DNA of 64,000 nt from positions 1 through 64,000 of the forward strand of contig NZ_NRHC01000037.1 of NCBI RefSeq assembly GCF_003585885.1, written 5' to 3'. Both the position numbers and the translations under genes were made by a program. Below are positions 22,085-28,196 of this stretch, piece by piece. Every line of letters begins with the position of its first letter. Within the stretch, counting starts at the first letter, position 1. The notes under the pieces are model-generated. The model worked only from the letters and a program-made list of their open reading frames with translations. It ran no database searches and had not been told where the DNA came from. Origin of the DNA: Psittacicella hinzii. Its GTDB lineage: Bacteria; Pseudomonadota; Gammaproteobacteria; Enterobacterales; Psittacicellaceae.

Positions 22085-22369
22085 TTAAGCTTGTTCAGCT
22101 AATGCAGCCTCAGCAGCACGGATACGAGCTACTAATTTAGATTTGTGGTTAGCTGCTTTGTTAGCGTGGATTAAGTTTTTAGAAGCCATACGGTCTACAA
22201 CTTTTTGCATTTCCACGAATGCAGCTTTAGCTGCGTCGATATCTTTAGCTTCAACTAAAGCGTATACTTTTTTGATGTGAGTACGCATCATTGAACGTAA
22301 AGATTGGTTGTGTTTACGACGTTTTTCAGATGTAATTGCGCGTTTTTTAGCAGATTTGATATTAGCCAC
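22085..22369 (-). CDS. rpsT: 30S ribosomal protein S20
   Basis: Primary 16S rRNA-binding protein made of a three-helix bundle. The 94-residue protein begins [20 protein letters not shown] and contains [22 protein letters not shown], both diagnostic of S20. It is monocistronic, with its own promoter and terminator, as usual for this gene. Confidence 0.98.
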
Positions 22370-22674: not shown

Positions 22675-23004
22675 TAGACAGTTGAGACAGTATATATATA
22701 ACCGTCACTTTCAATTTAAGTACAGCAGGGATAAACTTTTGCTACATTTAAAGCTTCTTTAGCTTATAGGTTTATCACCTAATCTTAATCCCCTCCGTTG
22801 TATGGAAGACTTATGATTAAAAATGCTGTCGATAGAGTTTTAAGTAATTTTTTTACGTGCTGTAACTCTATGTACGCATCGTCGGGTAAATTGGAAGCTT
22901 TTGCATTAGCGCAAAGAATAAGATCTTATCACTCTCTTGATGTTTATATAACTTAACCGTTATATGTAATGTATCGGCTGTTGTTTGTGTTAACGGCTTT
23001 TTTT
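22675..23004 (+). ncRNA. Candidate structured leader RNA / attenuator upstream of sstT
   Basis: A promoter-like pair, TAGACA (22675-22680) and TATAAC (22697-22702, 16-bp spacer), is followed by stems GATAAAC / GTTTATC (22730-22736 with 22770-22776), ATAGAGTT / AACTCTAT (22832-22839 with 22864-22871) and TTTGC / GCAAA (22900-22915). A terminator-like CCGTTA / TAACGG (22957-22962 with 22991-22996) is followed by seven T. It matches no RNA family I know (not 6S, tmRNA, RNase P, 4.5S or the common riboswitches). Either a leader that controls sstT or an independent small RNA. Confidence 0.45.
22813..22956 (+). CDS. Possible 47-codon leader peptide in the sstT leader
   Basis: ATG-started frame of 47 codons with GGAAG five to six nt upstream. 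It begins MIKNAVDRVLSNFF and ends SLDVYIT, with two adjacent Cys and six Ser. Its TAA stop (22954-22956) directly abuts the left arm of the terminator-like stem, the geometry of a translated attenuator. It spans the strong ATAGAGTT / AACTCTAT hairpin, so it could equally be a chance frame inside an RNA gene. Confidence 0.3.
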   Translation: MIKNAVDRVLSNFFTCCNSMYASSGKLEAFALAQRIRSYHSLDVYIT

Positions 23005-23096
23005 CGCACATACATTTTTATAAAGATCCTTGTTCATTTCGCAGTTTAAATAACTATTTTTTAATAATTATTTTCTGTTTACGAGGTAATTCACTA

Positions 23097-24338
23097 ATGT
23101 TAAAGCCTATTTCATATTTATTTCGTGGTAGCCTGATTTTGCGAATTCTAATCGCAATTATTTTAGCCCTAGGCTTCTACTATATTGCTCCAGTAGTTTC
23201 TTCTCATGTTGCTATTTTAGGGCAATTATTTATTACTTTACTACGCTCTATAGCTCCTTTCTTAGTATTTATTTTACTAATTGCTGCTATTATTAAAGCT
23301 GATTCTGGAACAAACAAAATCATCAGAGCTATTGTTATTACCTATATAGCAGCAACTCTTATTTCTGCATTAATTTCAGCTAGCATCACTTTACTAGCTC
23401 CACCTGTAAAAGTTAGTTTAGTTGGTATTGACGCTTCAAGTATTCAACTAGCTAAAGAAGAAAGTGCTTTACAGGTTCTTCAAACTCAATTCTTACGTAT
23501 GTTTGAAAACCCAATCAAAGCTTTAGTTGAGTCTAACTTCTTAGCATTACTAACTTGGTCAGTATTCTTTGGTATGGCTTTCCGTTTTTGTAAACAAAAC
23601 GTTAAAGACATCTTATTTGAAATCTCTGACGCAACAGGTCGTGTAGTTGGTTGGATTGTACAATTAGTACCAATTGGTGTTTTTGGTATTTTCTCTGATG
23701 TACTTGTAAACCACGGGGTAGCAGAGTTATCTAAATATGCTCAATTAATTCTTTTACTATTATCAGTTTACCTAGTAATTGAATTTATTTTCTACCCAAT
23801 CGTTGGCTTTATCTTTACGCGTAAAAACCCATATCCTTTATTATTTAAGTGTGTGGTAATTTCGGGTATTCCTGCGTTCTTCTCACGCTCATCAGCGGCA
23901 AATATTCCTGTTAACTTAAAAGCTGCAGATGGCTTTGGTATCCCACGTAGTGTTTCTGCTTTTATTATTCCATTAGGTGCTAATATTAGCTTAACAGCAG
24001 CTGCGGCAACTATTACCGTACTTTCAATTACTCTAGCGCAAAGTTTAAATATTGAAGTACACTTCTTATCAGCTTTACTAGCTTGTGTGGTGGCTTCTCT
24101 ATGTGCTATTGGTTGTTCTGGTGTTCCAGGCGGTTCATTACTAATGATCCCAATTGCGGCTTCATTATTTGGTATCCCACCTGAAATTTCAGCACAAATG
24201 ATTGGTATCGGTTTCTTAATCGGTGTTATCCAAGACTCGGTTGAAACTGCAGTAAACTCATCAGGTGATATCTACTTTACTAAAGTAGTTTCTGACTACT
24301 ACGGTGTTAGTGAAGATCCTAATTACGAAAACGATTAA
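23097..24338 (+). CDS. sstT: Serine/threonine:Na+ symporter SstT
   Basis: Inner-membrane secondary transporter of the DAACS (glutamate-transporter-like) family, importing serine and threonine with sodium. The 413-residue protein has eight predicted transmembrane helices with two re-entrant loops, and the family motif FFSRSSAANIPVN near residue 262 plus GCSGVPGGSLLMIPIA near 342, close to E. coli SstT in length (414) and pattern. A GAGG Shine-Dalgarno lies before the ATG. Expression is probably set by the structured leader upstream. Confidence 0.95.
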   Translation: MLKPISYLFRGSLILRILIAIILALGFYYIAPVVSSHVAILGQLFITLLRSIAPFLVFILLIAAIIKADSGTNKIIRAIVITYIAATLISALISASITLLAPPVKVSLVGIDASSIQLAKEESALQVLQTQFLRMFENPIKALVESNFLALLTWSVFFGMAFRFCKQNVKDILFEISDATGRVVGWIVQLVPIGVFGIFSDVLVNHGVAELSKYAQLILLLLSVYLVIEFIFYPIVGFIFTRKNPYPLLFKCVVISGIPAFFSRSSAANIPVNLKAADGFGIPRSVSAFIIPLGANISLTAAAATITVLSITLAQSLNIEVHFLSALLACVVASLCAIGCSGVPGGSLLMIPIAASLFGIPPEISAQMIGIGFLIGVIQDSVETAVNSSGDIYFTKVVSDYYGVSEDPNYEND

Positions 24339-27949: not shown

Positions 27950-28010
27950 TTCTCCTCAGTTCTCCTCAGTTCTCCTCAGTTCTCCTCAGTTCTCCTCAGT
28001 TCTCCTCAGC
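27950..28010 (+). repeat. 10-bp tandem repeat, six copies
   Basis: TCTCCTCAGT is repeated six times in register (27951, 27961, 27971, 27981, 27991, 28001), the last ending in C. The copies are perfect otherwise. They directly adjoin a second array of a related 11-bp unit. Confidence 0.97.
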
Positions 28011-28090
28011 TACTCCTTTGTTACTCCTTTGTTACTCCTTTGTTACTCCTTTGTTACTCCTTTGTTACTCCTTTGTTACTCCTTTGTTAC
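28011..28090 (+). repeat. 11-bp tandem repeat, seven copies
   Basis: TTACTCCTTTG recurs with 11-bp period from 28021 to 28086 (six full copies), preceded by a 10-nt partial copy at 28011. The CTCCT core is shared with the adjoining 10-bp array, so the two probably derive from one ancestor. On the minus strand every unit carries AGGAG. Confidence 0.97.
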
Positions 28091-28196
28091 TCTCACGGAG
28101 AATATCTAAGAGCCTATATATCTAGAGTTTATTTACTTTAAATTAACTATTTTCTAACTAATTAAATATAAACTTAAGGTAGCTTTTGCAAATATT

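Follow-up and report, generated by a model that had tools for sequence, protein, structure and literature searches.

In Psittacicella hinzii, a member of a bird-associated genus, the sstT mRNA probably carries a cis-acting, riboswitch-like translational leader that represents a new, genus-restricted class. The structured RNA occupies approximately 390 nt immediately 5' of sstT and would comprise a junction-type sensor domain (helices P1-P4), probably including a pseudoknot, followed by a translational control region. In the proposed mechanism, the strand CCUUGUUC would pair either with GAAURA, by which helix P8 is extended, or with the Shine-Dalgarno sequence of sstT in helix P10, by which the gene is switched off. 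The two states are expected to alternate in the cell with the core deciding between P8 and P10, and the core may bind a small molecule, perhaps one of the amino acids serine and threonine or one of their products, these two being guessed from the identity of the gene. A conserved and covarying candidate sensor domain, as is required of a riboswitch, is present in the 5' leader; the RNA is described here as riboswitch-like and cannot be called a riboswitch, since ligand binding is putative.

The window, i.e. the whole stretch of 64,000 nucleotides that was analysed and to which the coordinates refer, contains a gap of 727 bp between the divergent genes rpsT (22085-22369, minus strand) and sstT (starting at 23097, plus strand), and several stems are present in this gap, as the original prediction had claimed. 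The gene 3' of the leader is confidently assigned as SstT by the model NF010151:

sstT, 23097-24338, plus strand: Na+-dependent serine/threonine symporter (NF010151, 403 bits, cut-off 308).

Its best match in the genome collection is found in P. melopsittaci (84% identity), and the four-fold sites of sstT are 49-54% identical among the species, which is close to saturation. Uninterrupted conservation suggests that the structured region is co-transcribed with sstT. Elsewhere in the window, two adjacent perfect tandem arrays are observed at 27950-28092 (6 x TTCTCCTCAG and 7.5 x TACTCCTTTGT); as the units are of 10 and 11 bp, any reading frame crossing this interval would be shifted when the copy number changes, and the arrays possibly constitute a phase-variable or plastic site.

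The window genome (G000) was compared with the genomes G001, G002 and G003 of the same genus, the loci in G001 and G003 being referred to as L002 and L003. A DNA search with the leader in 40 relatives gave strong matches confined to the genus Psittacicella, including G001 (E 7e-52) and G003 (E 7e-30, split into several pieces), while the contig of G002 starts within the leader and carries its last part only. The leader is conserved in the three species with an intact region and, as a 3' end only, in the fourth. Hypervariable stretches separate the conserved blocks in the automatic alignment; the alignment used for the analysis (A4; three full-length sequences) was anchored at P1 and its variable loop interiors were trimmed by hand, the trimming being restricted to these interiors. 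In folds of the untrimmed sequences, P1 and P2 appear in the window, G001 and G003, and P4 in the first two of these. The junction nucleotides are 100% and 94% identical as against 49-54% at the four-fold sites of sstT, and high conservation runs through the supposed terminator to the Shine-Dalgarno sequence and the start codon of sstT, G002 included. These comparisons support the view that the leader is under purifying selection. The elements of the core are as follows:

Core, 22708-22897, plus strand: RNA resembling a four-way junction and closed by P1; L002 and L003 share it.
P1, 22708-22718 with 22887-22897, plus strand: closing helix of 11 bp; 100% of cells paired, three pairs changed on both sides and one on one side.
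ACAGC in J1/2, 22722-22726, plus strand: invariant; a 5-bp pseudoknot is possible with GCUGU at 22859-22863 in the P4 internal loop.
P2, 22727-22780, plus strand: hairpin AGG-GAUAAAC / GUUUAUC-ACCU, from folds and alignment.
P3, 22781-22818, plus strand: hairpin AAUC/GAUU with the near-invariant loop UUGUAUGGAAGA; two pairs changed on both sides.
P4, 22823-22879, plus strand: AUGC/GCAU, GU/AC, AUAGAGUU/AACUCUAU and apical GUAA/UUAC, with the internal loop UUAA / GUGCUGU.

Compensatory changes, the absence of which had been set beforehand as grounds for rejecting a structured leader, were looked for and found. Of the 45 pairs, nine are altered at both partners among the three sequences with the pairing preserved (three in P1, three in P4, two in P3 and one in P2), against a mean of 3.3 (sd 1.4) in shuffled alignments, none of the 500 shuffles reaching nine. 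P1 and P4 are paired in every sequence and the 14 pairs of P4 below its apical stem are 100% paired, with three changed on both sides and two on one side. P3 and P2 are weaker with some cells unpaired, and the stem sequence of P2 is partly replaced in G003, where the hairpin is much longer. Standard pairs occupy 95.6% of the cells in A4, whose covariation score reaches 0.311, compared with 0.192 after shuffling (0/500). A register control, in which the 3' partners were slid by 1-3 columns, gave 0-3 pairs changed on both sides. Counts of this size, obtained from three sequences, are modest in themselves; they are notable because synonymous sites are near saturation, whereas the unpaired positions of the junctions retain 94-100% identity. 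The wobble cells (five G-U against two A-C) lean towards the plus strand as the RNA. The folding z of the core is about -2.1 in the window (22708-22897) and -2.0 and -1.6 in the homologues, and the stability of the larger interval 22700-23010 is ordinary (z -0.85); folding energy alone provides modest evidence, whereas the comparison across species provides strong evidence.

All five pairs of the pseudoknot ACAGC/GCUGU are possible in each of the three species and all are invariant, and hence devoid of covariation; the pseudoknot is probably part of the sensor domain. Another UGCUGU, at 22824-22829, could pair with this ACAGC as well, and the changes of G003 in AUGC/GCAU favour an intact P4. 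A conserved frame of six codons at ATG 22823 (MLSIxF), overlapping P4, was dismissed, its changes following the helix and not the code.

The same anatomy and conservation would fit a structured cis-regulator whose binding partner is a protein, a small RNA or a tRNA and in which the core serves as the docking site controlling translation or decay of the sstT mRNA, and sstT of E. coli is itself under the control of the small RNA GcvB. This explanation is considered somewhat unlikely, as elaborate junctions with invariant unpaired nucleotides are more typical of ligand-binding RNA and a credible GcvB gene was not found in this genome. The sole GcvB match is weak (27.5 bits, cut-off 42) and lies within a coding sequence that reads as rpmA.

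Downstream of the core, the riboswitch-like leader continues with the following elements:

P5, 22898-22916, plus strand: linker hairpin, variable in sequence among species (sequence and fold).
P8 left strand, 22916-22927, plus strand: GAAURAGAUCUU, pairing with 23023-23035 over 12 bp that flank a bulged C; three species conserve the two strands.
P6 and P7, 22928-22966, plus strand: variable hairpins within P8, from folds of three species.
P9, 22968-23016, plus strand: clamp AAUGUAU/AUACAUU around the hairpin GCUGUUG..UAACGGC (the 'terminator' of the original prediction), conserved in three species.
Shared strand, 23023-23035, plus strand: AAGAUCCUUGUUC, the right strand of P8 and the left strand of the Shine-Dalgarno helix P10, identical in four species.
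P10, 23028-23086, plus strand: CCUUG (23028-23032) with CGAGG (23082-23086, the sstT Shine-Dalgarno), GCAG with CUGU, and an A/U hairpin on top.

The inner part of P8 (GAUCUU:AAGAUC) encloses the variable P6 and P7 and the conserved P9, P7 being a hairpin in every species though its stem is wholly different in each; the outward extension of 6 bp (GAAURA:UUGUUC, around the bulged C) would be expected by chance with a probability of about 0.013. As judged by eye, AACAACAG, a stretch at the leader's 5' end (L002 about 1408-1418, L003 about 830-840), could pair with CUGUUGUU of the P9 hairpin, over 8 bp in G001 and G003 but over no more than 5 bp in the window.

P10 is predicted in all four species, with an unpaired probability of at most 0.02 for the Shine-Dalgarno when the segment is folded alone. 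Since the CCUUGUUC strand is common to the long P8 and P10, the two helices are mutually exclusive, and the leader has the capacity for P10 in all the species and for the long P8 wherever it is complete. Their minimum energies differ by 2-5 kcal/mol in the folding model; for the window and G001 the model favours the long P8, and for G003 it favours P10. When the long P8 is formed in the model, the Shine-Dalgarno is not clearly freed and remains partly paired with other partners, which are specific to each species. P8 and P10 are nearly invariant in the 3-4 sequences available and hence devoid of covariation support; the P8/P10 switch is put forward as a hypothesis built on conserved parts, and no direct link between the core and the choice of P8 or P10 was found.

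The original prediction had read the region as an attenuator, a reading that is unsupported because the leader peptide, the terminator and the antiterminator hairpin are all unconserved. The 47-codon frame is indeed open from ATG 22813 to 22956, but across the species it has no common start or stop, is disrupted by frameshifting indels and is directly preceded by a stop codon in G003. Likewise, the hairpin at 22976-22998 and the following TTTTTTT (22998-23004) are present in the window, but the tract UUUUUUU is replaced by UUUUCCU and UUUACUU in the relatives; since the stem is kept and T7 is not, the P9 hairpin is not a conserved terminator. The competing CCG/CGG hairpin is absent in both relatives, and the promoter proposed at about 22675-22702 did not appear in the scan and differs in sequence in the relatives. 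Neither a conserved short frame nor an intrinsic terminator before the gene, by which leader-peptide attenuators are recognised, was found, the U-tract being confined to the window.

Ribosome-mediated control by a leader peptide might use the 47-codon frame or a second frame starting at ATG 22969, from which a ribosome could open P10. This second frame (22969-23049, MYxLLFVxTA..., 25-26 codons) runs into P10, and its ATG, open frame and similar length are shared by all three species. It is, however, preceded by no Shine-Dalgarno, and past about 11 codons the three species read the conserved DNA in three different frames, which means that it is not a protein that is conserved; the covariation of P1-P4 would also be left unexplained, and the non-conserved 47-codon frame offers no substitute, which makes such control very unlikely. 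It is similarly improbable that an independent trans-acting small RNA gene ends near 23004 and lies 5' of sstT by chance: the window has a terminator-like hairpin with T7, but T7 is not conserved, the conservation goes on to the Shine-Dalgarno and the element always adjoins sstT.

The distribution of the leader bears on the class proposed here. The covariance model R1 detected one copy each in G000, G001 and G003, always 5' of sstT in the intact Psittacicella genomes. Nothing convincing was found outside the genus in overlapping samples drawn from the order (395 genomes), the class (369) and the phylum (399), searched with the stricter filters applied to sets of more than 40 genomes, which a remote relative with another loop layout could escape. 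An independent pattern allowing up to three mismatches matched the same three genomes only among 395, and the leader was found in none of the 22 non-genus genomes, among the 40 closest relatives, that carry an sstT relative. Weak R1 matches outside the genus (E 0.002-0.06 per genome) were rejected, as they do not adjoin sstT (tblastn empty) and P4 is absent or degenerate in the alignments inspected, one of the matches lying in tandem tRNA-like repeats. Two exact pattern matches in viral contigs had no score with the covariance model, and the plasmids searched gave no match.

Rfam 15 gave no match above the gathering threshold, in agreement with the original prediction, and chance-level matches only at permissive thresholds, in the window, L002 and L003. 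The copies of tmRNA and RNase P RNA in this genome are located elsewhere, and 6S RNA was rejected as RF00013 has no match in the leader (window, L002, L003). RF00013 has no match in the G000 genome either; this assembly is 92% complete, and its 6S gene may be missing or divergent. The original claim of an undescribed structured leader holds, being supported by covariation and purifying selection, by the lack of a match in Rfam and by one fixed genomic context, but the mechanism attached to it was mostly wrong.

Undiscovered riboswitch classes are expected among rare, lineage-restricted structured leaders. It is judged unlikely that the leader constitutes a natural class of riboswitches responding to serine, threonine or a close derivative of these; if it did, the amino acids serving as riboswitch ligands would gain a new member. 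A full-text literature search turned up no threonine riboswitch paper, and the term 'serine riboswitch' once, in passing. The clear boundary, the covarying core, the well-defined gene and the compact prediction of translational control make the ligand directly testable in vitro.

Among the known systems, amino-acid leader-peptide attenuators and T-box leaders share with the sstT leader a long structured leader of an amino-acid gene, but it has no conserved leader peptide or terminator, unlike the former, and Rfam scans of the window and relatives gave no T-box match. GcvB controls sstT of E. coli (Pulvermacher et al. 2009, as cited in PMC5963079) and is thus a post-transcriptional regulator of the same gene, but it acts in trans as a small RNA, none being credible in this genome. 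The Na+ riboswitch (DUF1646 motif; PMC9337991), the described example of which works via terminator formation, is likewise a cis-regulatory RNA and could suit a Na+ symporter, but Rfam gave no match to it in the window or relatives. Translational riboswitches differ in that the sstT leader falls in no Rfam class and its link between domain and switch is conjectural; as in these, the 5' leader contains a covarying junction domain and, after it, mutually exclusive helices, with the ribosome-binding site predicted to be hidden by one of them.
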